Positions 5,789 to 22,308 of a stretch of 22,308 bases of DNA are shown piece by piece. Position 1 is the stretch's first letter; each line of letters opens with the position of its first letter. The notes under the pieces are model-generated. The model was not told the DNA's origin. It worked only from the letters and a program-made list of their open reading frames with translations, and did not search any database. Where the stretch lies: the IMG/VR virus record IMGVR_UViG_3300000239_000021, positions 1 through 22,308 of that record; one strand, 5' to 3'. The stretch comes from a virus. Position numbers and translations under genes: made by a program.

Positions 5789-6175
5789 ATGACAACAACA
5801 ATACCACTTGGCATTAAACTACCGTACAGAAAGGGCAGTGGTGGATACTTTCTACAAACACATTCGGACATGGAGAGGGCCCTGATAAACCTAAAGATGT
5901 TACTTATGACTGCAAAGGGAGAACGTCCCATGATGCCAACATATGGAAGTGATCTGAGGGAGTTGTTGTTTGAACCAAACATGGACGACCACATGGACGA
6001 CCTATTCGAAGATTCGGTGAAGGAAGCAACTGCAATTTGGATGCCCGAAGCAATGATACTATATGTTAGAGTGGAGCGGGATTTGATTAACACACCAAGT
6101 TCTGCAACCCTTCACATAGGATTCAAGGTGACAAACATCCCAGATTCTGAACAAATTTTAATATTAGAGATATGA
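5789..6175 (+). CDS. gp25: Baseplate wedge protein gp25
   Basis: 128 residues, close to the 132 of T4 gp25. The core signature MPTYGSDLRELLFEPN (about 49-64) matches the gp25/TssE family (GS.L..LLFEP), whose members plug the inner end of the wedge and bind gp6 and the sheath initiator region. The N-terminus (IPLGIKLPYRKGSGGYF) and the paired segment NLKMLLMTAKGERPMM are also typical of the family. Older annotations call the family lysozyme-like, but its role is structural. It starts five bases after the previous stop, and its TGA is one base before the gp6 ATG, matching the conserved gp25-gp6 pairing. No anomalies were seen. Confidence 0.93.
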   Translation: MTTTIPLGIKLPYRKGSGGYFLQTHSDMERALINLKMLLMTAKGERPMMPTYGSDLRELLFEPNMDDHMDDLFEDSVKEATAIWMPEAMILYVRVERDLINTPSSATLHIGFKVTNIPDSEQILILEI

Positions 6176-6176
6176 T

Positions 6177-8156
6177 ATGGCAGACGGATTTGAAACTACC
6201 CCAGTAAAACTTGCATCCAGAGATATAAATTATCTGGGGAAAGACTTCAACGCGTTCAGACAGAATTTAATCAACTACGCTAAATCTTATTTCCCACAAA
6301 CATATAAGGATTTTAGTGAGAATTCCACCGGAATGATGTTCATTGAAATGGCAAGTTATGTAGGTGATGTGTTATCGTATTACATAGATTATCAATTCAA
6401 AGAGGGGTTTATACAACACGCAGAAGAACGAAAAAATGTAGTGACACTTGCGAACTATTTGGGGTATAAACCAAAACCGGCAATTTCGGCAGCCACATCA
6501 CTGGAAGTGTACCAACTCGTTCCGGCAAAGACTAATTCTTCAACAGGAACAACCGAACCCGATTATAAATTTGCTTTAAATATTGCCCAGGGTATGGAAA
6601 TTACATCGGGTGAGTCAACTCCCGTAGTATTTAGAACACTTGAATCGGTTAATTTTACAGAGGAGAGTGAAAACCGACCACGTGTAGTTTCGGTGTTCGA
6701 TAGAGATCCAGTTACCAGTGAACCCACGTTTTACTTATTAAAGAAAACTACGATGGCCTCGGCCGGCACACTGAAATCCAGAGAGGTTGTTGTAGGAAAT
6801 GGTGAACCATTTTTCGAGGTGGAACTTATAGAACCAAATGTTCTTGAAATAGTCTCGGTGAAAGATTCTTCCGGCCAACAATATCACGAGGTGCCTAATT
6901 TGGCCCAAGATACTATTTTTGTAGAAGAACCAAACACCGACAACCGAAACCCATTTTATAGCAAATATTCAGAAACAACACCATACATAATGAGATTGTT
7001 GCGAACATCTAGACGATTTATTACACGAGTGAATTCCGACAATACGGTGACATTAGAGTTCGGCGCAGGAACTGATAAGATAGATGATGAGATAATAATA
7101 CCAAACTTAAACAATGTCGGTAGAATATTGAAAACTGAAAAGGGATTTGAACTTGCGTATGATCCATCAAACTTTCTCAAGACAAAAAGTTACGGTGAAG
7201 CTCCGGCAAATACAACACTCACCATACAATATTATGTTGGTGGAGGACTTACATCAAATGTAGCATCAAATTCGTTGAATAATATTTCATCAATTTCATT
7301 TGAAGACCAAAGTGAATATTTGACTGCACAGGAATCATCCATACTTGATACTATCCGAGGTAGTATTCGTGCAAATAATCCAGACCCTGCACTGGGGGGT
7401 GAAAATGCCGAACCAACCGAGGAAATAAGAATGAATGCCCTTGCGTATTTTTCCGCACAAAATCGTGCGGTTACACGGGAAGATTATGTTGTCCGAGCAT
7501 ATTCAATGCCCAATAAGTTCGGAAGCATCGCAAAGGCATATGTAACACCCGACGGAATATTGGACTCCGCAACACAACTGTCATTGATAAAATCACTAGA
7601 GGCACAACCGACTAAGACAAGTCCGGCAGGATTAACTACTGCATATGGAGAAATAAACAATCCGTTTGCAATTAATATGTATGTGCTGAGTTATGACAGG
7701 GACAAACACCTTGTCTCTCCCAACGAATTGATATTTAAGAATCTTAGAACATATCTGGGTCAATATAAATTAATGACAGACGGAATAAATATAACGAACG
7801 CGTTTGTTATTAATGTTGGAGTGGATTTGGAAATATCGGTATTTCAAAACTACAATAAAATTGATGTGCTGAGTGAAACCATCCGTGCAGTTAGGTCTTT
7901 CTTCAATATAGACAAGTGGCAAATTGCTCAGCCAATTGAACTGGGTGACTTGGAACTTACGATTGCCCGTGTTTACGGAGTTAAGTCGGTGGTTAGTTTG
8001 AGAGTTTACAACAAAACACTTGAGGATGGAAATTACTCTAGCAATGTATATGATGTGGACTCGGCCACATTTAATAAAGTTGTATATCCATCAATGGACC
8101 CATCCATATTTGAGTTAAAGTTTCCAACCCGTGATATTGTGGGGAGGGTTGTATAG
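6177..8156 (+). CDS. gp6: Baseplate wedge protein gp6 (J-like)
   Basis: 659 residues, essentially the length of T4 gp6 (660). The N-terminus (LASRDINYLGKDFNAFRQNL, then STGMMFIEMASYVGDVLSYY) is the hallmark of the gp6 family. The central segment RAVTREDYVVRAYSMPNKFG (about 426-445) matches the conserved AVT.EDY core shared with phage P2 gpJ, and the C-terminal part is also family-like. gp6 dimers tie neighbouring wedges into the baseplate ring and drive the hexagon-to-star change. The gene directly follows gp25 and its TAG shares one base with the next GTG start. The tight packing indicates one transcript. The reading frame is intact. Confidence 0.93.
   Translation: MADGFETTPVKLASRDINYLGKDFNAFRQNLINYAKSYFPQTYKDFSENSTGMMFIEMASYVGDVLSYYIDYQFKEGFIQHAEERKNVVTLANYLGYKPKPAISAATSLEVYQLVPAKTNSSTGTTEPDYKFALNIAQGMEITSGESTPVVFRTLESVNFTEESENRPRVVSVFDRDPVTSEPTFYLLKKTTMASAGTLKSREVVVGNGEPFFEVELIEPNVLEIVSVKDSSGQQYHEVPNLAQDTIFVEEPNTDNRNPFYSKYSETTPYIMRLLRTSRRFITRVNSDNTVTLEFGAGTDKIDDEIIIPNLNNVGRILKTEKGFELAYDPSNFLKTKSYGEAPANTTLTIQYYVGGGLTSNVASNSLNNISSISFEDQSEYLTAQESSILDTIRGSIRANNPDPALGGENAEPTEEIRMNALAYFSAQNRAVTREDYVVRAYSMPNKFGSIAKAYVTPDGILDSATQLSLIKSLEAQPTKTSPAGLTTAYGEINNPFAINMYVLSYDRDKHLVSPNELIFKNLRTYLGQYKLMTDGINITNAFVINVGVDLEISVFQNYNKIDVLSETIRAVRSFFNIDKWQIAQPIELGDLELTIARVYGVKSVVSLRVYNKTLEDGNYSSNVYDVDSATFNKVVYPSMDPSIFELKFPTRDIVGRVV
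8142..8148 (+). promoter_or_regulatory. Strong Shine-Dalgarno fixing a GTG start at 8156
   Basis: GGGAGGG lies 7 bases before GTG 8156, inside the last codons of gp6. It is one of the few strong ribosome-binding sites in the window. It supports the GTG, which overlaps the gp6 TAG by one base, as the true start of the DNRLRE-type protein. Confidence 0.7.
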
Positions 8157-9508
8157 TGAACATTTTTTTATACGCAGCTGCGGACTCAACTATATATAAA
8201 CACAAAGATCTTGTAGACCTAAACACAGGATTTGACGAGATATTGGAACTGGAAAATACATATAGTGAACTGTCCGGACATCGAGTTTCCAGATTTTTAA
8301 TGAGATTTGATTTTGAAAACTCCGGAGTGTCCGATGATATATTGGTGAACTCGGAGTATTTTTTAAATCTGAAAATAACAGAATCCAAGGAAGTTAAGCA
8401 CAAAGGTGCATTGCAGGTTTTTCCAGTTGCGGAGTCGTGGGAAGAGGGTGTTGGTAGAAGGTACGACACAGAAGTTTCATATGAAGGTGTTACTTGGAAA
8501 TCAAGAAGTAACACAAGACTTTCCTGGGAAAGTGAAGGGGCTTCGTTTATTAGATCCACAGAAAGTGGGCCAGATGCGGAAGAATTGGTATGTGAATATA
8601 AATTCGTGAAGAGAACATCCGATGTATCACTCAATATAACAAAGATAGTTGAGAAGTGGATAACCGGAGATATTGAAAACAACGGACTCCTGATAAAATT
8701 TAAAGATGAGAATCTTTCGGCCGAAGGAAAGATAGACTTCTTTTCAAAAGATACGAACACGATTTACAGTCCTTATGTTAGAATTGGATATAACGATTAC
8801 TATTTCGACCCGTGCGAATGTATCCCATCGGAGAAACTTGAATGTTTATATGAAACGCAAGACGAACAGACAAATACGACAGGATCAACCTTGACACAGG
8901 GAAGTCCATGTATCATAAGTGGAAGTGCAGGGTTGGTCAGTGGAAGTGATTGCATAGTAACATCGGATTGGTCAGGACTACCATCCGGAAGTCCATGTAT
9001 CATAAGTGGAAGTGCAGGGTTGGTCAGTGGAAGTGATTGTGCGGTAAGTGGAAGTCTATCTACACCGAACGATACATCAGATTGTAATGCAATATTGTCC
9101 CGGACAACAACACTACAACAATCAAAAATTAACCACATAACAGAGGATGATGTGGTTATAAAGTTGCGCGGCATCAAGGCAAAGGTTTCGGTAAAAGAAA
9201 GTGTTCGTATAAAAGTTGGTGTGCGTGAAAAATATCCACCAAAAACATTCCAAAAACATTCCAACTATTCACAAAATAATTACGTAGACCACCCAATATA
9301 TTATTCGATTCGCGACGCAGATACGCATGAGATGCGAGTGCCGATGGATAAGTATTCACGTATAAATTGCGATGCCAACGGTCACTATTTTGATTTTGAT
9401 TTTGGGTGCTTGAGTGTCGGCAGAATTTATGAATTTATAATTAGAATGGAAACACCTACACAAACACTGGAGCACATCGATAAAGTAAAATTTATGGTAA
9501 CGACATGA
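8156..9508 (+). CDS. DNRLRE-type carbohydrate-binding-like virion protein with SGS/Cys repeat insert
   Basis: 450 residues, GTG start. Residues 1-220 resemble the DNRLRE beta-sandwich seen in secreted and phage surface proteins: AAADSTIY ... RFLMRFDFEN, then VFPVAESWEEGVG, GVTWKSR, LNITKIVEKWITGDIENNG and FFSKDTNTIYSPYVRIGYND. Residues 249-305 are an insert of SGS-type repeats with paired cysteines (GSPCIISGSAGLVSGSDC twice). From about 325 a second conserved beta-domain follows (SVRIKVGVREKYP, YYSIRDADTHEMRVP). Such proteins are likely appendages or decorations bound to the baseplate; sugar binding is inferred from the fold, not shown. It lies between gp6 and the gp7-like gene, and its TGA overlaps the next ATG as ATGA. 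Confidence 0.7.
   Translation: MNIFLYAAADSTIYKHKDLVDLNTGFDEILELENTYSELSGHRVSRFLMRFDFENSGVSDDILVNSEYFLNLKITESKEVKHKGALQVFPVAESWEEGVGRRYDTEVSYEGVTWKSRSNTRLSWESEGASFIRSTESGPDAEELVCEYKFVKRTSDVSLNITKIVEKWITGDIENNGLLIKFKDENLSAEGKIDFFSKDTNTIYSPYVRIGYNDYYFDPCECIPSEKLECLYETQDEQTNTTGSTLTQGSPCIISGSAGLVSGSDCIVTSDWSGLPSGSPCIISGSAGLVSGSDCAVSGSLSTPNDTSDCNAILSRTTTLQQSKINHITEDDVVIKLRGIKAKVSVKESVRIKVGVREKYPPKTFQKHSNYSQNNYVDHPIYYSIRDADTHEMRVPMDKYSRINCDANGHYFDFDFGCLSVGRIYEFIIRMETPTQTLEHIDKVKFMVTT
8900..9039 (+). repeat. 53-bp exact direct repeat encoding GSPCIISGSAGLVSGSD
   Basis: Bases 8900-8952 and 8987-9039 are identical over 53 bases. The offset is 87 bases (29 codons), so the frame is kept. Perfect identity at synonymous positions indicates a recent duplication or gene conversion. 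It lies in the linker between two beta-domains of the 8156-9508 protein. Confidence 0.93.
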
Positions 9509-10110
9509 CGATGAAAAAACTTTTCCCAACATACATAACCGCATACGATTTTAACCAAGAATCGTATGATGAGTTTATAAAGACACCAAATGATGGTTCA
9601 CAACTTGATGAATATAGTAATCTTATATTAAGTTCAAATTCCGATGATCTTGATATTGTGGAGGTCGATAAGTTTTTAATAAAGGTAACTCCACGGAAAA
9701 ATATGTTCGATCAAGTACAGGTAGAAAATTTTTTTGATACGAGAGTTTCAGAGTTTACGGACACCGAATCCGATCCAGAAAATACCTCTACGGATGAAGA
9801 GTTGGTAGTGGAGTTTGCAGATGAGATTGAGGATGAACTTGGAGATCAACTAGCGCAAGAACAAATACTTCAAAGTCAGATAGACGAATTGTCGGACACA
9901 CTTGATACAGAGATTGAAAGGGGAGTAAAATTTCAAGAAAATGCCTCGGAGAATTTTTCGGCCTCGAAGGATTTGATTATTTCACAGAGGATTTCACTCG
10001 GACAGGGGACAACTGACACGGATTTCAGTGAAAAGTTTCCATTTCTACCAAAGTCTGAAGATGAGGTTGAAGAAACTGCGGATAGTTTCCCATTTATGAG
10101 TGGATCATAA
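9505..10110 (+). CDS. Acidic protein of unknown function, baseplate cluster
   Basis: 201 residues, strongly acidic. It opens with MTMKKLFPTYITAYDFNQES; ATG 9505 overlaps the previous stop as ATGA, and a second ATG at 9511 is an equally possible start. The middle (VVEFADEIEDELGDQL, then ILQSQIDELSDTLDTEIERG) is a probable coiled coil at about 110-145. The C-terminus holds two related aromatic peptides, FPFLPKS and FPFMSGS, which may be short docking motifs. I do not recognise a family. Acidic coiled-coil proteins of this size can be assembly chaperones, and its place directly before the giant 10128 gene would suit that, but there is no direct evidence. Confidence 0.65.
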   Translation: MTMKKLFPTYITAYDFNQESYDEFIKTPNDGSQLDEYSNLILSSNSDDLDIVEVDKFLIKVTPRKNMFDQVQVENFFDTRVSEFTDTESDPENTSTDEELVVEFADEIEDELGDQLAQEQILQSQIDELSDTLDTEIERGVKFQENASENFSASKDLIISQRISLGQGTTDTDFSEKFPFLPKSEDEVEETADSFPFMSGS

Positions 10111-10127
10111 ATTAATATGAATTGGTT

Positions 10128-13100
10128 ATGGCAAACTATCACAAATTTGTAAAGAAATTTTCAACTGCTACCAATAGAGAGTTTGATTTCCCCCGAGGTT
10201 CACCTATTGATGAATCGATGTTTGATTTGCTCGCCGGAAATGAGATCTCCCAAGTTCCTCTGGAATTCGGTAGAAGTCAGAAGGATGTTGTAGAATTTGC
10301 CGTATACTCATCCGACAATGAATTAATTACATCGAATGTAGTTGAACGAAATGAAATTTTTGTAAAACGAGACTATGATTTTATTGATTATAACGGAGAG
10401 CATAGAATTGGTTCGTTGTCCACATTTGATAGAAATTATCCAGTTACTGCCGCTGGTGAGGTTGTCATATCACCAACACATGAACTAAAAAATTTGGGAT
10501 ATACTGACGGAACGCACAATATAGGAGTTTCGTTTAGGAATGAAATAATAGGTGCGTCGGATTCCGATTCAAAACTTGTAATAAAAAACATATCACCTTC
10601 ACGAACAGAACTCAAGGTGATGCCAAGTTCATTGAAGACATCCCGAAAACCACTTGAAGTTGCTTTAAATTTTGAATATGAAAACTTTTTCAATAAACGA
10701 ACATTGGTTGCTCATGTTTACAACGAAACTTTTAATTTTATAAAAACCGAGGGAATTCGCACATATGTTGATAGAGTAATTGCGGATAATGAAATAGAGG
10801 GGTACTCGGATTTGATATACGGTGTGGTCACGGCGTTTAAGTTCAATTCTTACCACGATTTTACAGACGAATGCACCGAGTTTCATGATAAGAGTGTTGA
10901 GTTATTTTCCAATGTTATGTTGTGGAAGTATAATGAAGTTTTTTCCGAAAAACAATTTGCCATTGAGTATATCAAGTGCATTGACTGGGTGCTTGACAAC
11001 AGTAAACGATTTTCAAACAAAGATGTAGATGCAACACTATCCGATCCATATGATGTATACCGACAAACATTGATTGCTCAATATAACACCGCACTAGTAT
11101 CTGCTATTTATACCGCAAGATTTGATTCGTATTTTTCAAATGTTCTTAATTTTGGTGGGGGCAGAATAATAACGTTTATTAGTGCGTCACGGGGCACAGA
11201 AAATTCAAACGATAACCGAAAACACCGGCCACTGGTAATAAAACTAATCGAACCACTACCAACGGATATTGTGGTAGGGGGGTCACTTCACATATCAAAC
11301 ACGTCATATTCGGACGACATAATACAGACTGCGATTATGTACAAACGCACAGTTCCTGTGTTGTATAAAATGCGTGGCCCGAATATATCATTCACATCCT
11401 CCGGAGGAACGAGGGAATATACTTCGGAAGAACTTGACAAAACTAAATCGGAGATACAGAGAAATGCTTTGCTCGACTCAACTGCCGAACTGGACGAGGG
11501 TTTGCGAGAGAGACTTAAAGAACTTGAGGTAGAGTGGAGAACCGAGTTATACGGAACACCGTTGTCAATTACAGATGAGATTTCAAGGTATTTCCACGGC
11601 CGAACGGAAGACCAATATTTGACAATTGATTACTCCTCATTCGAAAATTTTGTGAAGTTTTCGTCTGCAAGAAAAAGATTGGATGTGTTTATCTTCAAAC
11701 TTGCAAAGGTATCGGAAATCGATAGACAACTAGAATCTATTCGAAGATCGTGGAGACTAACATCACCGGAGAAATTTGGCAAACTTTCATATGACACTCA
11801 AATGGAAGCATTGAGTTCGGAGAAATTGACTATGATGAAAGGATTTGATGGTTATGAACGGTTTCTATATTTTGAAGATATTATTAAACTGACCGATGAA
11901 GCCGAGGAGGTTCAATCTAAAATTGATGATATTATGTCCAAGGTTTATCAAAACGGAACAAACTATGAGTATGAGGAACGACTAGCAGAGTTGCGAGAGC
12001 AGTTGCTATATACATATGTAAGTTGGCCAAGAGCAGAATTCGATTGTGACGGGATTGACGATTGGTCATCTACAACGTTGGATTATACATATGGTGACCC
12101 AGCACTGCACGGTGAAGCAATCTGGTTGGTAAAACAAGACCAACATCCTGGACAAACAGACATCCCAGGTGAGTCCGATATGTGGGAATTTTTCTGCAAA
12201 TGTGGTGAATGTGTGGGAAAGAAAATACCCATGACCGATGCCAGTTATGTATTTTTGACATCTCGTACCTATTATAGACCACAACCAATACCAAGCACGA
12301 TGGCAGAATTTTCACAAAGTCCTGCGTATGCTTGGTATGCGGTGAAGGCAAAGGAGGCGGATTTCTATGACAAACATAATGATAATTCATTATTAAATAA
12401 TACACCAGAATTTATAACTAGGGATGATGATAATGTTGATTATTTTGATTTTTTGAATTTCATCGGACATCAATTTGATTTGATACATATGTACGTGGCT
12501 GGTATAGGGACGATTCGTGAACCGAGGAACAGTGCAGAAAAGGGAATACCAAATGACATGGTTTCCCATATGTTGAATTACTTCGGGGGGAATTTCAGTG
12601 GGTATGACGATGGAGAAATCAATGCCCTTACCAAGCAAGTTAAAACAAAAAGTCATTTGGAGTTTATTAAGAAGTTCAAAGAGAAAAAGAATGTTATATG
12701 GAGACGAATTCTAAACAACTTACCACAAATTTTAAAAACAGTTGGGACAGAACAATCCATTCGGGCGTTATTTAGATGTTATGGTGTACCAGACTATTTG
12801 TTCAGAACACGTGAATTCGGTGGGGTTGAATATAACACGGACTTAAGTGACGAGGCACTTTATAGTTTTGATACCTTTGACTATTACTTAACAATATCAC
12901 AGAAAAATCAGTATCTTGACATAGAGTGGTCCAGTCCAAACTATAATGTTGCTTCGGTGGAGTTTAGATTTGGATTTGATGATACACAAGTTGACAGAGG
13001 CAAATCGGTGGAAATTGTTAGAACGTCTGGGTGGCAATTTGGATTTGAACCGGAAGCAGATTCCACTTCGCATGAATATGGCAGATTTTACTTTAGAATT

Positions 13101-16100
13101 CTTATAGACGAGGGCGGATACGAAACATACGAAACCATCTATCTAAAAGATGTACAGACCGAAAAAACCCTGGTCACACCATACAACTCTACAAAATATG
13201 ATGTACTAATTAACAGGAACTCGGGTGATGCCGATAAACATAGGAGGGGTATACAAATATATGTGAAACGAGTCGAAGGTCAGGATGTAGTGTACTCATC
13301 ATATGCGGAATTTGCTACAAGTGATTTTTCATATGATAAATTTTACAATGGAAGTAATTCTGAATCAATTTCATTTGGGAATTATGTAGATTCTAATTTT
13401 TTTGGAAGGTTGGACAGGTTGCGAATGTACGAAACCCCACTACATGAATCCAGATTTGAAAACCACATACTATTCAATCAATCATATGATATGGATAACC
13501 CATATAGTTTGACCACGGATTTAATTTTTAAGGCAAACTTTGACTATCCATATTCACTAAATGCAACCGACACACAGTCATATGGTATAGTTGAGAATTC
13601 GGCATTTCGTAACGATGTACCAGTTTGTGCGAAGTGCTATAATTTTCAAAAACAAGAATACCCATATGACTTTGTGGGTGAGAATATTCGGCATTTCGCA
13701 AAATTACCTTCGTATGGTGCACAGGTTTTTAATAACAATAAGGTAAGAATAGAATCGCAGAAACTTATGACCCAACTTTCGGTTGCGTCTAGGTCAACAC
13801 TGAAGAGCAATGATAGATTAACCGCAGACACCAATACGGTGGGTGTGTATTTCAGTTCAAGTGACTTGATAAACCACGAAATAATAAGATTTTTCGGTAA
13901 TTTTAAACTGGGAGATTATATTGGAAATCCAGAGGATTTGTATAGTGAAACATATCAAGAATTTGAAAGAATTCGTGAGTTGTTTTTTAAACAAGGTTTC
14001 GGAAAACTGGACTTTACCGCTTATCTAAATATAGTTGAGTCATATGTAGATCCATCGTTGTTTGAAAATTTGAAAAAATTAGTTCCTGCCAGGAGCAGAC
14101 TTATTGCAGGTTTGGTGGTTGAACCTACCTTATTGGAAAGACCGAAAATAAGGCGAAGGCCTATAGTAAATGAGATTTTGAAGTTCGACGACATTTATTT
14201 TAATCTGAAACCAAATACAAAAAATATGGTTTCTCATGCAAATAGCAGGCCCTACGATCAAACGGACTTGGAAATCAACACAACAGGATATAAATTTTAT
14301 ACAAAACAGACACCCAAAGTTACCAACTGGTTTCCAACGGAGTATAACATGAACTCTGTCAAAAACATTCCAAACGAATTAATGTATGGGGTGAATTCGA
14401 TTCAAGGAATTTCGTCTGGATATAAGATAGAAAAACTTTCTCCTGTATATAAGAGATATGCAATTGATGGTGGAGGTAACAAAACCTACAATGCAGTAAA
14501 AATAAGTGGAACTCTGTTGAGTGAGTCTGAATTTGATTGTGTGTTTTATGGAAAATTGGGTTCCGCAATATCAAATAAGAAAGAATTAAAACGACATATA
14601 GCATGGATACACAAAGATACAACTATTAATGGAGAAAAACCAGATATATTCGGTGAGTTTAATACGGCAGGATATGCTATATTTGGGTATGTTTTTAACG
14701 GACACCGAGTGGTTGGAAAACTTTATGGAGACTTCATAGGACAAATACAAACTGGACACGTAAAACGACTGAGTGTACTTGGAAGGATTGGAGGTAGGGT
14801 GTATGATGAATGCGATGCGGTAACATTTGGTGGGTCGATATCCAAATCACTGTTGGGTGTATATAAGTTGACTGGTGCGATGGATCGTAAGTCGGAGAGT
14901 GATAAAACCAGAACACGGGAAATTGAAAGAGTTTTTACTGACGGTGATTTGAATGCAGTAAAAATACCAAACACAATACAAAAGAAAATTCCCATTGATA
15001 TTGAATATAACACACATTTCACGATTCAAAACACATCCAAGTCCGTCGCCACTGTTACTGGGGAGTATTCCGGAAAATTACAATTAGACGTTTCGGCGGT
15101 ATTTCACCCACCCACTGTGGCCACATTTGATATAGAATGGCAACAGGGCAAAGTGCTTAACAACACGGCCGGTGTATCCTATTTTAAGAAAACAAAAACA
15201 TTACTTAAGATACAGAAATCTTCATATGACTATGTGCATAATATAGTTTCGAGTGAATCAAATAGTTCGTCGATGACACCAGAGGATGCACTTAATTTGG
15301 ATGTAAAATTGGTAGGGCATGATACACAAGATTTGAATGTGGATGGGTTGCTTACTACAACTGCACAACAGAATTGCAATGGTAGTTCTGGTATTGAGGA
15401 CTATGTTGAAAAACAGACAAAACGAGAAATGTCACTCAGACAATACGATATAGTGGGTGATGCGTTTGCCAATGGATATGATGCGGAACTTTTTTATATT
15501 TCGGCAAAACCCCCAACACCGTTTCACGTCGGAGACAGAGTTTATTTGACAGGAGTGAATATGTGTTATTCGGCACACCCAACCAATCAACCAAGAGCAA
15601 ACTTCAATGATCAATATTATGTTATATCAAAAATTACTCACAATGAAGATAAAGGAACCATTGATATAGAGTTTCCCCATGAAAAAGATGTTTCCATAAA
15701 TGCAGGAGGGACATATGAATCTGGAGGTCAAGTGGGTTATAGTCCAGAGAAAATATTACCCATCGTAGATACTACCAAACACATAGGTGACTGGTCTACA
15801 CACTATGAGTATGATATACCATTTGAGTTTACACAACAAATGAGAACACCAACCGAAGATACGGATGGAGATGGATTTTATGATGTCTTTATGCGTAATA
15901 TACCACTGAGTGTTTCATATAAAAATGGAGAGTTTTTGGTGGAGTGGTCCAACCCACAACAAACGGATACGAGAGGAGAACCACAAACAGGACAATTAAA
16001 ACTAAATCTCACAGACGAAGGTGCAGTGTCAGATATGAAAGGGTTTTCTTCAGCAACATCCTCCTCCGCCTCGTGGTACTTTGGAGAATCCGTTACCAGT

Positions 16101-17915
16101 GAACTAGAACTACCAGATGCGGATTGTCAGATTGTATATAAACTAAAGGTTAATGCGAATTTAGCAAAACCCAAACCCACTACCACATACCCGATGATAA
16201 TAGATGAAAGTTTTAGTATGGGTGATACGGTGGAGGTGGTGTTTAGACGGGGAACCTATTTATGGCACTCCAGTGCAAGGGGGTTGGAATCTATAACTGG
16301 AGTGGTTACCTGTATATCGGAACTAGACGGAGAACGGTCAATAACCATAAAGAATGGAGACGATGTGGAAACTTTTACGATTTCCTCAACTCATGTTTAT
16401 AGTCTTAGAGTCGTTAAATCTGCCGACGAAACCCATACAAAGGAAATTGATTTTAACGAGACATACAGTGAAAAACTGAGAGGTATATCCGCAAGTGAGA
16501 AAAAGTATTATCCGGATAAGAATTTCAAAAAACTTCCAATTAAAATTAATGCATCAACATATGTCACTATCGAGAAACCGTTTGAATACTACAATATTAA
16601 GGACATAGGAACCCCAACTTTTAGTATACTTGAGGGGAAGTTTCCCCAACACAAGAGCAACTACCGAAATGTTTTTTCAGCTTCCAGTAAACGAAGGGGT
16701 GATATGTATTGCCGAAGATCAGTAAGTTCGACCAACACAACAATATCTCCAGATGGTGGCCCAGATAAAACTCCCGCAATAACTAGAAAGAGAAAAACAT
16801 CAATCCAAGACGGTGCAGGTGATTCCTTTTGGTATCTGGCGGATGAACCGGTGTCTACTCCAATAGATTGCGGGCACACAGAAACAACCCACATAGCATC
16901 GGAGGATGAGTGTACAACACCACCCACAACACTACCAACTCCAACACCCGAGTCACCGGAACCGTCGGACTTGCTGAACTTGGATTCGTTGCAATTACAC
17001 TATACATTTGAATCAGACGAAGAGTCGCAAATTATACATGATAAGTCAGGTAACCAAAGACACGGAACACTACATTCCGCGGAGATACGAGATGGAGGGG
17101 AGAGTAGGTCATATAGGAAACTTTTAAGACTAGACAACGATGTTAGGACTAATCCAGAAAATATGAACAGTTATCTTTCCGTCTCTCAAGGAACTCCCAT
17201 AGGTGCTTCTTCGGCAACTATTAGTTTTTGGATTAGACCGACCGGTATAAGTGACAGTGATGTGGGAATCGTTCTAAACAATTCAACCGAACCTAACAAT
17301 AGACACGGAATTATACTGAATCCAGGAGGAAACCGGTTTTCTCTTGGATATACTTGGCAAAGTGGTGTGGATTCCCACAATATAGACCTCGAAGTGGAGC
17401 TCCCACACGATGCGTGGACTCATGTGGTTATTTTAATATATGCCGAGGGGTTTGTACGGACGTTTGTCAATAAGTCGTTCGTAAACAACTATGACTTGGG
17501 GGTTAGGCACTCCGAGGTCACATTTGATAATTTGGAAATCGGTCGATTTTCGGGAATGATAGATGACATTCGGGTTTATAACGAGGTACTTGACTATGGG
17601 AATGTGATGTTAGCCAAAGAGGCAACAGGATTGGTCGGTGAGTTATACGATTCAACGAGACAAAATGATACATCACCCACCACATCTAACAGTTGCGAGG
17701 AACAGCCATATAACTATACATACCACCAATCATCGGCGTTTATACAGGCAAACGATGTATACGTTGATAATCCGGGAGATGATCCTATTGCAGATCCAGA
17801 AATTGACTCTAAACGGAAATTTGTAGTTCAGGGAGGTCCGAATGCAGGTATTGAAAAAAATGCAACAACTGAGTTTATGGGGAGTCTTTGTGGGAAACTG
17901 AAAGAGATTGTTTGA
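10128..17915 (+). CDS. Giant baseplate/tail protein: gp7-like core with two LamG-like domains
   Basis: 2595 residues from ATG 10128; a TTG at 10122 would add two residues but is less likely. Residues 1-900 are a long wedge-like region with a Cys cluster (CKCGEC, 690-695), then NTPEFITRDDDNVDYFDFLN and GIPNDMVSHML. At 872-899 is VGTEQSIRALFRCYGVP...REFGG, a motif I associate with large wedge/tail proteins of marine phages. Residues 930-1115 look like a LamG/ConA-type domain (ending GRLDRLRMYETPL). At 1311-1345 is LKKLVPARSRLIAGLVVEPTLLERP. Residues 1400-2250 are beta-rich and unrecognised, with a Ca-loop-like DTDGDGFYD near 1911. A Thr/Pro linker leads to a second LamG domain at 2285-2490 (LHYTFESDEE ... 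ATISFWIRP ... GMIDDIRVYNEVL). The position after gp6 fits a gp7 equivalent, but T4 gp7 has 1032 residues, so this is far larger. Glycan binding by the LamG parts is inferred. Confidence 0.8.
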   Translation: MANYHKFVKKFSTATNREFDFPRGSPIDESMFDLLAGNEISQVPLEFGRSQKDVVEFAVYSSDNELITSNVVERNEIFVKRDYDFIDYNGEHRIGSLSTFDRNYPVTAAGEVVISPTHELKNLGYTDGTHNIGVSFRNEIIGASDSDSKLVIKNISPSRTELKVMPSSLKTSRKPLEVALNFEYENFFNKRTLVAHVYNETFNFIKTEGIRTYVDRVIADNEIEGYSDLIYGVVTAFKFNSYHDFTDECTEFHDKSVELFSNVMLWKYNEVFSEKQFAIEYIKCIDWVLDNSKRFSNKDVDATLSDPYDVYRQTLIAQYNTALVSAIYTARFDSYFSNVLNFGGGRIITFISASRGTENSNDNRKHRPLVIKLIEPLPTDIVVGGSLHISNTSYSDDIIQTAIMYKRTVPVLYKMRGPNISFTSSGGTREYTSEELDKTKSEIQRNALLDSTAELDEGLRERLKELEVEWRTELYGTPLSITDEISRYFHGRTEDQYLTIDYSSFENFVKFSSARKRLDVFIFKLAKVSEIDRQLESIRRSWRLTSPEKFGKLSYDTQMEALSSEKLTMMKGFDGYERFLYFEDIIKLTDEAEEVQSKIDDIMSKVYQNGTNYEYEERLAELREQLLYTYVSWPRAEFDCDGIDDWSSTTLDYTYGDPALHGEAIWLVKQDQHPGQTDIPGESDMWEFFCKCGECVGKKIPMTDASYVFLTSRTYYRPQPIPSTMAEFSQSPAYAWYAVKAKEADFYDKHNDNSLLNNTPEFITRDDDNVDYFDFLNFIGHQFDLIHMYVAGIGTIREPRNSAEKGIPNDMVSHMLNYFGGNFSGYDDGEINALTKQVKTKSHLEFIKKFKEKKNVIWRRILNNLPQILKTVGTEQSIRALFRCYGVPDYLFRTREFGGVEYNTDLSDEALYSFDTFDYYLTISQKNQYLDIEWSSPNYNVASVEFRFGFDDTQVDRGKSVEIVRTSGWQFGFEPEADSTSHEYGRFYFRILIDEGGYETYETIYLKDVQTEKTLVTPYNSTKYDVLINRNSGDADKHRRGIQIYVKRVEGQDVVYSSYAEFATSDFSYDKFYNGSNSESISFGNYVDSNFFGRLDRLRMYETPLHESRFENHILFNQSYDMDNPYSLTTDLIFKANFDYPYSLNATDTQSYGIVENSAFRNDVPVCAKCYNFQKQEYPYDFVGENIRHFAKLPSYGAQVFNNNKVRIESQKLMTQLSVASRSTLKSNDRLTADTNTVGVYFSSSDLINHEIIRFFGNFKLGDYIGNPEDLYSETYQEFERIRELFFKQGFGKLDFTAYLNIVESYVDPSLFENLKKLVPARSRLIAGLVVEPTLLERPKIRRRPIVNEILKFDDIYFNLKPNTKNMVSHANSRPYDQTDLEINTTGYKFYTKQTPKVTNWFPTEYNMNSVKNIPNELMYGVNSIQGISSGYKIEKLSPVYKRYAIDGGGNKTYNAVKISGTLLSESEFDCVFYGKLGSAISNKKELKRHIAWIHKDTTINGEKPDIFGEFNTAGYAIFGYVFNGHRVVGKLYGDFIGQIQTGHVKRLSVLGRIGGRVYDECDAVTFGGSISKSLLGVYKLTGAMDRKSESDKTRTREIERVFTDGDLNAVKIPNTIQKKIPIDIEYNTHFTIQNTSKSVATVTGEYSGKLQLDVSAVFHPPTVATFDIEWQQGKVLNNTAGVSYFKKTKTLLKIQKSSYDYVHNIVSSESNSSSMTPEDALNLDVKLVGHDTQDLNVDGLLTTTAQQNCNGSSGIEDYVEKQTKREMSLRQYDIVGDAFANGYDAELFYISAKPPTPFHVGDRVYLTGVNMCYSAHPTNQPRANFNDQYYVISKITHNEDKGTIDIEFPHEKDVSINAGGTYESGGQVGYSPEKILPIVDTTKHIGDWSTHYEYDIPFEFTQQMRTPTEDTDGDGFYDVFMRNIPLSVSYKNGEFLVEWSNPQQTDTRGEPQTGQLKLNLTDEGAVSDMKGFSSATSSSASWYFGESVTSELELPDADCQIVYKLKVNANLAKPKPTTTYPMIIDESFSMGDTVEVVFRRGTYLWHSSARGLESITGVVTCISELDGERSITIKNGDDVETFTISSTHVYSLRVVKSADETHTKEIDFNETYSEKLRGISASEKKYYPDKNFKKLPIKINASTYVTIEKPFEYYNIKDIGTPTFSILEGKFPQHKSNYRNVFSASSKRRGDMYCRRSVSSTNTTISPDGGPDKTPAITRKRKTSIQDGAGDSFWYLADEPVSTPIDCGHTETTHIASEDECTTPPTTLPTPTPESPEPSDLLNLDSLQLHYTFESDEESQIIHDKSGNQRHGTLHSAEIRDGGESRSYRKLLRLDNDVRTNPENMNSYLSVSQGTPIGASSATISFWIRPTGISDSDVGIVLNNSTEPNNRHGIILNPGGNRFSLGYTWQSGVDSHNIDLEVELPHDAWTHVVILIYAEGFVRTFVNKSFVNNYDLGVRHSEVTFDNLEIGRFSGMIDDIRVYNEVLDYGNVMLAKEATGLVGELYDSTRQNDTSPTTSNSCEEQPYNYTYHQSSAFIQANDVYVDNPGDDPIADPEIDSKRKFVVQGGPNAGIEKNATTEFMGSLCGKLKEIV

Positions 17916-17988: not shown

Positions 17989-18651
17989 ATGGGTTATCTT
18001 AATAACGAAACAATTACGGTCGAGGCCGTCCTAACAAAAAGAGGACGAGAACTGCTTGCATCAGATAGTGGATTGAATATAACTAGTTTTGCATTGGCAG
18101 ACGATGAGATTGATTATACATTGTATGATTCAAACCATCCGGATGGTTCGCAATACTTTGATATGGCATTGCGGAATACTCCGGTATTTGAACCATTAAC
18201 CGATGAAACACAGTGTTTAAAATATAAGTTGGTAACCCTGCCCTCTGGCACGAAATATATTCCTGTAATTAAGTTGGGACAACAGAGTATCACTCTTGAC
18301 AAAGACTACAATGGGGTGGTTACATTAAACCCAACTACAAATCCTGTATATAATACACGACTTGGATATACGGCAGTTCTATCAAACAGGGAAGTAGGAA
18401 CTATCACCGGAACAGGAGTGGACGCATCTGTCGGACAAAATACTGCGATATTCTTGGGAGATACCGCAAGTACATATGCCCAAACCGCACTCGGCCTGTC
18501 ATTTGAATTTAGGGTAAACCCGTCAATAACTAGAAACGTGGGGGCCAATTTAACCGTCATTGGTAATGAAAGTGGAGGATCTATAACGATCCCGGTTAAT
18601 GTGTTAGCTGAACCACTTGAAGGGATTTCCGAAAGTGGAAATATAGGGTAA
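17989..18651 (+). CDS. Conserved phage structural protein (MGYLNN-type), function unknown
   Basis: 220 residues. The N-terminal 80 residues (MGYLNNETITVEAVLTKRGR, then FALADDEIDYTLYDSNHPDG, then DETQCLKYKLVTLP) match a highly conserved small protein that I recall beside baseplate and tail genes in many marine myoviruses; its function is not established. The C-terminal half is beta-rich and resembles an immunoglobulin-like fold (SITLDKDYNGVVTLNP ... LTVIGNESGGSITIPV). There is no signal peptide or membrane span. The ATG is preceded by a weak AAAGTG and, further up, the palindromic late promoter, so this gene probably starts a transcript. Its TAA shares one base with the ATG of the next gene. 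Confidence 0.8.
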   Translation: MGYLNNETITVEAVLTKRGRELLASDSGLNITSFALADDEIDYTLYDSNHPDGSQYFDMALRNTPVFEPLTDETQCLKYKLVTLPSGTKYIPVIKLGQQSITLDKDYNGVVTLNPTTNPVYNTRLGYTAVLSNREVGTITGTGVDASVGQNTAIFLGDTASTYAQTALGLSFEFRVNPSITRNVGANLTVIGNESGGSITIPVNVLAEPLEGISESGNIG

Positions 18652-20159
18652 TGATATTTAAGGAACTTGATAGCACGGACAAAGTTGCCGGCCGTGTAAC
18701 ATCGGTACATGATGGTTTGTTTTCCGGAGACCATCCTGGGGAATTGGATAGTTTCTATTATGATGAAACGGCCCACGAAGAAACACCCCTATCAAAATCA
18801 CACGATACATTGGGTTCGGCAAGAACTCACATGAATGAAAACTGGACACTTCCGAGAAAGGAAGACTACTATACTAACATATATCACGAAGAGTTGTACA
18901 TAGGAGGCTTAACAAATCAAGCATCCGAGCAACAATTTTCAGTGACATATGGAAATATATACGGATATGGTAGTCCACTTTCCCAAGCATTTGATTCAAA
19001 AAGTCCACGAATAACAAAGACAATCTATAGTCAGTATAAAAATATACTTTTAAATCCTGACGATAAGAAATTCACATTCACTCAGCAAATTTTACGAACC
19101 GATGGCACTCATGGTTTCGTGGGATATAATTCTGACTCAATTTATGCTATCAACTTTTCTACATCTCGTATGAAAGAACGACTTGATGAGGGTAATTTTA
19201 TGATGACACTGGGAGTCACGTTGGACGGAAATCCGTCATCGGAGATTAATTACAGAGCATCTTTCCAGGATAACAGTGTGTTCGGTACAGGTGTCAGTTA
19301 TGTTTCATCTTCACCACAATTCGGCCGTGTGTTTGATTTGGTCAAGGTTGAAAATTCGGACAGGTATAACACAGACGCAGCGGATGTAGTCCGAATGGTT
19401 AGTGCCCCGGACGATTATGCTGATGAAAGTGGTGAAGATATTCGGTATTGTCCTGAAAAAAATCTTAGTTTCGGTTTAGTTTATCCAGATTTGGGAATTA
19501 TAGTTTTAAATCCAGTAGCAATTGCTGAACAATTTAAACTCGGATTGCACAACGCACTTTTGAGAGATATGGCAGAGAAAGGTGAAACTACATTTCCGGT
19601 TGGATATGCGATTGAAGAAAACGAGGGGGCAAAACTGGCATGGTACGGAGATGTCAACCCAACAACTCACCGACTGGGTGATGTCTCGTCATTTGTGTCT
19701 AAACGGAATGAACATGAAAAAATAGTTGATAATCCAGATACATGGAGAGACTTGGAAGATCTGAAAACTGCCGGAGGGGATAGAAACTATCAAAACTTTC
19801 TTAAATTAGTAAACGCATTGCAGGTCGGAAAAAAGTTCGAATGTAGAAATACCGAAATAATCCCATCGAAGCATTATTTTATTAGAATAAAAAATACGGA
19901 TTTTAATTATAGTAACAATCCGTCATTCGTATATCAGGGGTTTGAAGCAGACACCGAAGCAAAGAAGGCAAATGCTTCTAGGGATGATTACTTGGGACGC
20001 GTACGACATGGTGACTTTATTACTGATCCAAGAGTTTATATAACAACAATTGGGTTGTATAATGAAGATAATGAGCTGGTTGCTGTTGCAAAATTGAGCA
20101 AACCTATATTAAAGACATTTGATTCCGAGGCCTTGGTTAAGGTTAAGTTGGATTTTTAA
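18651..20159 (+). CDS. Conserved phage tail/baseplate structural protein
   Basis: 502 residues. After a variable N-terminus, residues 75-180 carry NWTLPRKEDYYTNIYHEELY, QQFSVTYGNIYGYGSPLS, TKTIYSQYKNILLNPDDKKF and IYAINFSTSRMKERLDEGNF. This succession (QF...YG...GSG, then IYSQY.N.LL.P...FTF, then IYAI...R...KE.LD.GN) is one I recall in large virion proteins of marine T4-like phages whose exact place in the particle is unclear. The C-terminus ends with a typical beta segment (DPRVYITTIGLYNEDNELVA). It overlaps the previous stop by one base, so it is co-translated. A gp8-like wedge role has been considered for its position, but the length (T4 gp8 has 334) and motifs do not settle it. Confidence 0.75.
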   Translation: MIFKELDSTDKVAGRVTSVHDGLFSGDHPGELDSFYYDETAHEETPLSKSHDTLGSARTHMNENWTLPRKEDYYTNIYHEELYIGGLTNQASEQQFSVTYGNIYGYGSPLSQAFDSKSPRITKTIYSQYKNILLNPDDKKFTFTQQILRTDGTHGFVGYNSDSIYAINFSTSRMKERLDEGNFMMTLGVTLDGNPSSEINYRASFQDNSVFGTGVSYVSSSPQFGRVFDLVKVENSDRYNTDAADVVRMVSAPDDYADESGEDIRYCPEKNLSFGLVYPDLGIIVLNPVAIAEQFKLGLHNALLRDMAEKGETTFPVGYAIEENEGAKLAWYGDVNPTTHRLGDVSSFVSKRNEHEKIVDNPDTWRDLEDLKTAGGDRNYQNFLKLVNALQVGKKFECRNTEIIPSKHYFIRIKNTDFNYSNNPSFVYQGFEADTEAKKANASRDDYLGRVRHGDFITDPRVYITTIGLYNEDNELVAVAKLSKPILKTFDSEALVKVKLDF

Positions 20160-20212: not shown

Positions 20213-22308
20213 ATGATTAAACCACTGAGAAGTTCGGATAAGATTGTCCGGCCCTTTAAAACATTCAAGACATGGACATATAAAAGCACCGACCTATCTG
20301 ATGTTATTTTGCTGGAACAAATCTATTATTCACCAGTGTCTGGTGGGATGGTGGGTGCGGTAGAGGTTTTAACACAATCACAGATAGAATCGCAGTGGGG
20401 TGAGTATTTCTCACATGATGAACTTGAAGTGAGTACCGAGGTCAATCAATCAAAAAAGTATTTAAATGTATATAACAGGGCAGACGATTCACTAATAGCA
20501 AGATATCAGGAAATCGACGCAACCAATCTATTGTCGTATGAAAGTGGTGACGGAGTATCACCAGAAACACAAGAAATACAAAAGGGGGAGTTTGGTATAA
20601 TTACCAAGCTTGGAAAAAACACAAAGGGAACATTTTATCCAACGGGACATCGATACTATGACTCAAAAAAGGAACCGATTAATTTTGACGGAACATACCA
20701 CAGAGTTGTGTATAATACAATAAAGCATTTGTTCTATAATGATTATTTTGTTAAACATTATGATTACAATTCAAACCATGAGTTGAATATAAAAAATCCA
20801 CTGATGTTATTTGGAGTGGAGAGTGCGGAATACCACGATCCAACTGTACTTGCGGATATTGATACCGGAGAGAAATACACGGATAGGAGAATAGAGAGAC
20901 GTGTAATCGGTGACAATATACTAGTGTTGGAAATTTCAAGGAAGAATTTTGGAGAGAAAATTAGACCAAAGTCTGTCAAGATAACCGATTATAGTTCGGA
21001 GTTTGAAGTGATAACTATCGAAGATGACGGTTTCACAAATTTAATTACTACGGAGGGAGTGTTTGAAAGTGTCCATCGTGTTGGCATGACATGGGCAGAA
21101 AAAATATCGGCACCAGACGAAGGTATGGGTGAGTTCGATCCTAGAGATTTTTCCTTCGGAGAGCAACTTGCTTCAAGTGGTATTTATTTTATATCCGGTT
21201 GCCCAATGAACACCGATGAAATGTCCGAGTCACAAACGGGCAGTGCGTTTATATATAAATTTGATAGTGAACACGACACATTCAGAGTCGTGCGACCATT
21301 TGTATGTCCGTTTACTCAAAATGGGTTGGCATTGGAGCAACGGCACGATCACAACAATGTATTACTAAAGCAGATTGGTGGAGTATTACTCGGACAGGAT
21401 TATTCGTTGAATGATAATTTCGGTGGTGCGGTTGACCTTACGGAGAACTATTGCGCGGTGGGCTCGTCGAGGTCACATATTAGAGGAAATTCCAGAGAAG
21501 CTCCGTCTGGACATGTTTTTATATATGAGAGAAATAAGGGAGGGAATGATCACTGGGGAATGTTGAATATACTTGAAGGACTACCTGGTTCCGAATTCGG
21601 AGCCTCCGTATCAATTGATGGTGATATGATGGCAATAGGTTCTCCTGGAATTGCGAATGGCAAGGGTGCGGTTTATATATTTCGCAAAGAAACCCGTACC
21701 ACGGAAAGTCCGTGGAGTCGAATTACTGATGTCCCCGAGGGTTACACATGGGATGGTGAGAATAAAAAGTTCAGGGGATACCCTGAAGATTTCGAGTTGG
21801 AGAGGATAAACGAGTCAACTACACGATGGAAAGTAAAAGGAGTTATTCCTGATGGCAATTTGTTAAAGTGTTTTTCTGACATAGGAACTTTTGAGTTGAT
21901 TTCGGGCAGTTATCCGACAGACACGATTGTGTCGGGAAGTATTATATCAGGCAGTTATCCGACAGACACGATTGTGTCCGGAAGTATTATATCGGGTAGT
22001 ATATCATCTGGGTCTATACCTAGTGAACTTGAGTGTATGTGTGATTTGTCGACATTTGGTGGGGAGGGTATAATTACACATGGCACTCTCAAGCATAATG
22101 AAGAGGAGTTCGATTCTGGATACGAACCACACGAATATTCGGAAACACCCAAACAATCTACCGGTGATTCAACTTGGGTTTTTGATTCATATGTGGTACC
22201 GGCAGAGTTGGAAAATTGTGAATCGTTTGGTGAGAAGGTCAAGTTGACAGGAAATTCGTTGTATGTTTCAACACCATCATCACATACGCAGGTTTGTTAT
22301 GTATTTGA
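20213..22308 (+). CDS. Virion protein with FG-GAP-type propeller repeats (3' partial)
   Basis: The frame is open from ATG 20213 to the window end (698 codons seen, no stop), so the gene continues outside. The N-terminal region (RPFKTFKTWTYKSTD ... NPLMLFGVESAEYHDP ... VLEISRKNFGEKIRPKSVKI) matches a widespread marine-phage structural family that I recall by motif. From about 310 come FG-GAP-like blades: SFGEQLASSGIYFISGCP, NFGGAVDLTENYCAVGSSR (about 401-420) and EFGASVSIDGDMMAIGSPG (about 460-479), each followed by a VYIF-type strand. Such repeats form integrin-like beta-propellers used for surface binding. At 564-604 lies an SGS-rich tandem repeat. No Shine-Dalgarno sequence is present; a TATTTATA box ends 3 nt upstream. 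Likely a receptor-binding or decoration protein; this is inferred. Confidence 0.75.
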   Translation, partial: MIKPLRSSDKIVRPFKTFKTWTYKSTDLSDVILLEQIYYSPVSGGMVGAVEVLTQSQIESQWGEYFSHDELEVSTEVNQSKKYLNVYNRADDSLIARYQEIDATNLLSYESGDGVSPETQEIQKGEFGIITKLGKNTKGTFYPTGHRYYDSKKEPINFDGTYHRVVYNTIKHLFYNDYFVKHYDYNSNHELNIKNPLMLFGVESAEYHDPTVLADIDTGEKYTDRRIERRVIGDNILVLEISRKNFGEKIRPKSVKITDYSSEFEVITIEDDGFTNLITTEGVFESVHRVGMTWAEKISAPDEGMGEFDPRDFSFGEQLASSGIYFISGCPMNTDEMSESQTGSAFIYKFDSEHDTFRVVRPFVCPFTQNGLALEQRHDHNNVLLKQIGGVLLGQDYSLNDNFGGAVDLTENYCAVGSSRSHIRGNSREAPSGHVFIYERNKGGNDHWGMLNILEGLPGSEFGASVSIDGDMMAIGSPGIANGKGAVYIFRKETRTTESPWSRITDVPEGYTWDGENKKFRGYPEDFELERINESTTRWKVKGVIPDGNLLKCFSDIGTFELISGSYPTDTIVSGSIISGSYPTDTIVSGSIISGSISSGSIPSELECMCDLSTFGGEGIITHGTLKHNEEEFDSGYEPHEYSETPKQSTGDSTWVFDSYVVPAELENCESFGEKVKLTGNSLYVSTPSSHTQVCYVF
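21902..21991 (+). repeat. Tandem 45-bp duplication encoding SGSYPTDTIVSGSII twice
   Basis: Bases 21902-21946 and 21947-21991 are adjacent 45-base copies differing at only two positions that I can see. Both encode the same 15 residues, and a degenerate SGSISSGSIPS tail follows. The unit is in frame and nearly identical at synonymous sites, so the duplication looks recent. Confidence 0.9.

Follow-up and report, generated by a model that had tools for sequence, protein, structure and literature searches.

P2 gpI, Mu gp48, T4 gp7 and TssG are published counterparts of one another (PMC6300606), and PMC8894135 describes the gp7-like part as a re-engineering hotspot. P2 gpI has 176 aa and its gene comes after a gp6/gpJ-type gene, while T4 gp7 has 1032 aa, is encoded directly after gp6 and carries an inserted beta domain (domain V, 766-861). 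In phage XM1, the 242-aa gp7 orthologue gp17 uses its insertion and C-terminus for tail-spike docking (PMC10457771). Wedge components with sugar-binding modules of their own have also been described already, namely Alg11 of AlgoCIS (PMC8894135) and gp119 of phage Vp4 (PMC11406892). The window analysed here, a virus record of 22,308 bases from IMG/VR, encodes a protein of 2595 aa that is probably the gp7/gpI-type wedge protein of its phage, an uncultured one from an aquatic setting. The ORF is uninterrupted (10122/10128-17915; ATG at 10128, stop at 17915) and, as a sequence-only reading of this DNA had stated, its product is about 2.5 times the size of the T4 protein. Independent contigs encode full-length orthologues of 2535, 2535, 2595 and 2597 aa, with 48-80% identity to the window protein in their best segments, and the length is therefore no frame artefact; a chimera, assembly or frameshift artefact is ruled out by the same contigs. 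The ORF and its neighbours are as follows.

5789..6175, plus strand: gp25-type wedge/sheath initiator gene, same cassette
6177..8156, plus strand: gp6-type wedge gene, same cassette
8156..9508, plus strand: 450-aa protein with DNRLRE/disaggregatase-type domain, between gp6 and the 2595-aa ORF; conserved neighbour
9505..10110, plus strand: 201-aa protein, function unknown; conserved neighbour in many relatives
10128..17915, plus strand: whole ORF, 2595 aa plus stop (ORF analysis; full-length orthologues of 2535-2597 aa)
17989..18651, plus strand: 220-aa protein, conserved downstream neighbour
18651..20159, plus strand: 502-aa protein, conserved downstream neighbour

The order gp25, gp6, DNRLRE protein, (201-aa protein), 2595-aa ORF family, 220-aa protein, 502-aa protein is kept in most of about 80 loci, where they reach far enough, including those of the cultured Microcystis and Flavobacterium phages. 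The ORF lies inside the baseplate operon, with the gp25/gpW- and gp6/gpJ-type genes before it, as is expected of a Tail_P2_I protein, and shares the operon region of T4 gp7 and the position of P2 gpI after a gp6/gpJ-type gene. It does not, however, stand right after gp6 as had been stated, because the ORFs for the 450-aa and 201-aa proteins intervene, and in this it differs from both P2 and T4. The DNRLRE domain of the 450-aa protein scores 40 bits in Pfam, against a cut-off of 34. The earlier suggestion that lectin modules are placed on the wedge instead of on separate fibres is contradicted by the fibre-like and tail-protein genes that follow the 2595-aa ORF: Pfam finds an FG-GAP repeat ORF at 20213 downstream in the window, and tail fibre/spike genes follow the family gene in the Flavobacterium phage. 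We note that the 450-aa protein, a conserved neighbour in most relatives, also has an SGS/beta-roll-like repeat (9003-9055), that the FG-GAP ORF (20213-22306), open at the window end, contains a 45-base tandem repeat at 21905-22005, and that a truncated ORF at 3-437 starts with a long Pro-Thr repeat made up of about 22 copies of a 6-base unit. The 267-aa protein at 941-1744, which we take to resemble a gp55-type late sigma factor, gave no match in a family search.

Relatives of the 2595-aa protein are encoded by at least 556 viral-contig stretches. Among 50,697 phage records they occur in only three lineages, those of Microcystis phage Mel-JY01, Flavobacterium phage immuto and an uncultured 484-kb phage, in all of which the family gene is without a named function, and among 84,980 prokaryotic genomes there were only three matches, all in metagenome bins. 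The helical core of the family is outside the reach of every PHROG, Pfam and NCBIfam model, and searches with phmmer, with hmmscan and of PDB sequences gave no direct homologue of this core. For the two cultured relatives, a literature search turned up no proteomic study of virions; neither proteomics nor a structure was found for any family member. Profile mapping over 85 members gave a common plan of variable N-terminus, conserved segment, helical core, insert, closing segment and tail, and the parts of the window protein are as follows.

10128..12197, plus strand: N-terminal region, residues 1-690 (alignment and profile location)
12300..12842, plus strand: helical core, residues 725-905, the most conserved part of the family
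12699..12824, plus strand: WRRILNNLP..K..GT..SIRA....YG.P motif, residues 858-899, the place matched by Tail_P2_I in 13 relatives
12855..13457, plus strand: internal LamG-type jelly roll, residues about 910-1110, inserted in the putative gpI-like module
13830..14162, plus strand: closing segment of the core, with a helix, the VPAR motif and a strand, residues 1235-1345 (1221-1344 in the profile mapping)
14163..16703, plus strand: stretch without database match, residues 1346-2192, apparently the variable tail region in expanded form
16707..16778, plus strand: motif similar to the one with which shorter members end at the C-terminus, residues 2194-2217 (visual comparison of tails)
16914..16970, plus strand: Thr/Pro-rich linker, residues 2263-2281 (from the sequence)
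17166..17591, plus strand: terminal LamG domain (Laminin_G_3), residues 2347-2488

Within the N-terminal region, residues 456-583, with an FSSA..R...F..K motif, are conserved in nearly all relatives, and residues 190-325 are specific to the window protein's clade in the alignment. The insert usually comprises 260-400 aa across the family. Tails range from 130 to 2100 aa, with 1,250 aa in the window protein; the largest relative (L013:6000-16160) has 3386 aa and a tail of 2111 aa, and the tail of another (L054:9957-10868) appears to carry a Hint/intein-type domain, a Pfam match seen in one of 41 tails. In shorter members, the tail closes with a GCKQT.TT.DG.P-like motif. Residues 2194-2217 of the window protein resemble this tail-end motif by eye, and therefore the linker and terminal LamG beyond it look like a later addition; residues 1346-2192 look like an expanded tail region. 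The Thr/Pro linker of the sequence-only reading is indeed present at about residues 2263-2281. The long beta-rich stretch that it described was unrecognised as claimed, there being no database match for residues 1346-2192, but its beta content comes only from a low-confidence model: AF2 prediction of residues 1400-2595 with 5 sequences gave a mean pLDDT of 32 and was unusable.

Support for the gp7 idea came, by another path than that of the sequence-only reading, from PF09684 (Tail_P2_I), the Pfam model of P2 gpI, which was searched in 50 related phage records. It gave 13 matches, and 13 of 13 lie in frame inside the family ORF at the helix-KGT-helix motif WRR..NLP..K.KGT; these matches come from related members and are not independent, and all of them, at 11.5-14.5 bits, fall below the Pfam cut-off of 20.6. 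The window's own copy gave no match, and in the 484-kb genome the only PF09684 match is the motif in the family ORF. The same model matched strongly in three P2-type phages and gave no match in seven phages without gpI (about 1.3 Mb). In a scan with the complete Pfam collection, more core members matched Tail_P2_I than any other family (5 of 55, best E 0.05). The KGT-type motif is present throughout the family, and hhalign aligns it to P2 gpI with P of 5e-4 to 8e-4. A HMMER rank test of the core against gpI and gp7 had two gpI proteins among the first six of about 940 sequences (about 920 of them decoy ORFs), which was not significant, and PF10076 (Mu gp48) had no match in 40 records. In the AF2 model the predicted elements after the motif are a strand (892-897), the LamG, a strand (1237-1242), a helix (1309-1318) and a strand (1324-1329), to which the gpI order of strand-strand-helix-strand can be matched with the LamG lying between strands, as far as predicted secondary structure goes. 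The gp7-like part would not be the first 900 residues, as had been proposed, but a recognisable gpI-type module at about 840-905 plus 1235-1345. Unlike P2 gpI itself, a protein less than a tenth as long, the module in this family would be split by a LamG domain.

The KGT-type motif is also placed by hhalign, in register, on T4 gp7 STKGIEASYKFLF with P of 0.02-0.07. The Pfam domains of T4 gp7 (Gp7_helical and Gp7_5th) gave only scattered chance-level matches. Domain V of T4 gp7 lies just after the T4 protein's own motif, so that both proteins have an inserted beta domain after it, LamG here and domain V in T4; in our reading of sequence and model, the two may occupy the same place. The AF2 model of residues 150-1345 was of moderate quality (pLDDT 73, pTM 0.45), and Foldseek found no wedge among the 50 PDB matches listed, which were either jelly rolls or unrelated proteins with weak similarity; from the viral library it listed uncharacterised viral relatives. 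Failure to find wedge similarity by fold search was the outcome that the sequence-only reading had named as telling against its own proposal, and formally it does so, but it is a weak result since the large lectin fold swamps the ranking of a small helical module and the pTM is only 0.45. The idea of a gp7-type wedge protein therefore stands on conserved synteny and the Tail_P2_I signal in relatives, and lacks over-threshold homology, a T4 gp7 domain and a wedge among the Foldseek matches listed. It could be argued from the fact that every gpI match is below cut-off, together with the weak rank tests and the lack of a wedge fold among the matches listed, that this is a structural protein with a core unrelated to gp7, in which the KGT motif resembles gpI by convergence or chance and the LamG domains serve mainly in host attachment. 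We consider this very unlikely, as all 13 matches fall at one motif in diverse relatives and none in the controls, and synteny with gp25/gp6 is strict.

The large baseplate protein of the VrlC kind (A511 gp106, DUF4815) is another described system that must be compared with this locus. It is likewise encoded after wedge genes and has homologues with C-terminal lectin-type domains, and the place of the 2595-aa ORF after a third baseplate-type gene, its large size and its lectin-type C-terminal domain resemble VrlC/gp106 of the Herelleviridae (PMC11406892). In addition, pelagi- and cyanomyophages have been reported to be without gp7 and to have VrlC instead (PMC7029224). The family protein could on these grounds be a peripheral baseplate or tail-fibre-network protein instead of a core wedge subunit, but we think this unlikely: the DUF4815 domain that Pfam assigns to A511 gp106 was unmatched in 26 related records, hhalign gave no signal to A511 gp106 or gp104, and the Tail_P2_I signal is specific to the family ORF. 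VrlC/DUF4815 and A511 gp104 were accordingly rejected as candidates. Taken as a whole, the data are best explained if the 2595-aa protein is the third core wedge subunit of this phage group and corresponds to P2 gpI and T4 gp7, an identity that we regard as probable.

The two LamG domains differ in how they were detected and in how widely they are kept. The terminal LamG is real, with a Laminin_G_3 match at residues 2347-2488 (E 2.4e-13; 51 bits against a Pfam cut-off of 27.6), and is a clade-specific addition. The internal LamG was missed by Pfam in the window's own protein, and the earlier claim of such a domain is borne out indirectly: Pfam found it weakly in the two closest relatives and matched Laminin_G_3 in 11 of 47 members, the family profile of this region matches neurexin LamG (E 2.5e-5), and Foldseek on the AF2 model retrieved PAPP-A/laminin LamG folds (E 6e-6). 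The insert with LamG is nearly family-wide and is missing only in the Flavobacterium phage, which has 34 aa there. One insert of about 600 aa (L065:8484-10337) appears to carry an RCC1 beta-propeller, a Pfam match in one of 47 inserts. Because it is conserved nearly family-wide, the internal LamG is probably a structural or docking domain, and not one for host-specific binding. That it is a bona fide glycan-binding receptor module at the wedge core is conceivable, given its LamG/pentraxin-type fold and the sugar-binding wedge proteins of AlgoCIS and phage Vp4 (PMC8894135, PMC11406892), but we lean against this, as a host-specific binder would not be expected to persist in almost every member, down to a phage of the cyanobacterium Microcystis. 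In Alg11 and Vp4 gp119 it is CBM folds that are found, on the spike cage (Alg11) or on baseplate wedge protein 3, and not LamG in a gpI/gp7-type protein. The glycan-binding role that the sequence-only reading gave to both LamG domains is putative; the terminal LamG would be the better candidate for glycan contact.

As a core wedge subunit, the protein would probably join two gp6-type subunits to form the wedge, assembling as a (gp6)2-gp7-type complex, and would offer attachment sites for receptor-binding parts. The corresponding P2 assembly is a (gpJ)2-gpI wedge that has a core bundle and a trifurcation unit. Its gpI-like module would be split by the LamG jelly roll, set where T4 gp7 has domain V. 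By analogy with docking by XM1 gp17 and with the gp7-like hotspot of re-engineering, this internal LamG would most likely be a family-wide structural or docking domain. XM1 gp17 similarly has an insertion and a C-terminal extension on a gp7-type core, but it is tiny and has no lectin domains. The C-terminal extension peculiar to this clade, which has a LamG of its own, would lie at the wedge periphery and make the first, low-affinity contact with glycans of the host surface. A more speculative and very unlikely extension is that the lectin fold in the conserved joint domain makes the wedge itself a glycan sensor: sugar bound at the baseplate core would help to set off the opening of the wedge and the contraction of the sheath, and the clade-specific terminal LamG would provide a second contact further out.

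The open-licence papers searched gave no example of a gpI-type module divided by a LamG domain. Our analysis gives a probable identity to a large family that is named in no database used and is present on at least 556 viral contigs. Many contractile-tailed phages of aquatic origin, on this evidence, may have kept a gpI/gp7 wedge subunit with a built-in lectin-type domain, and the family would show how far the re-engineering of gp7-type proteins goes and where such proteins accept domains.
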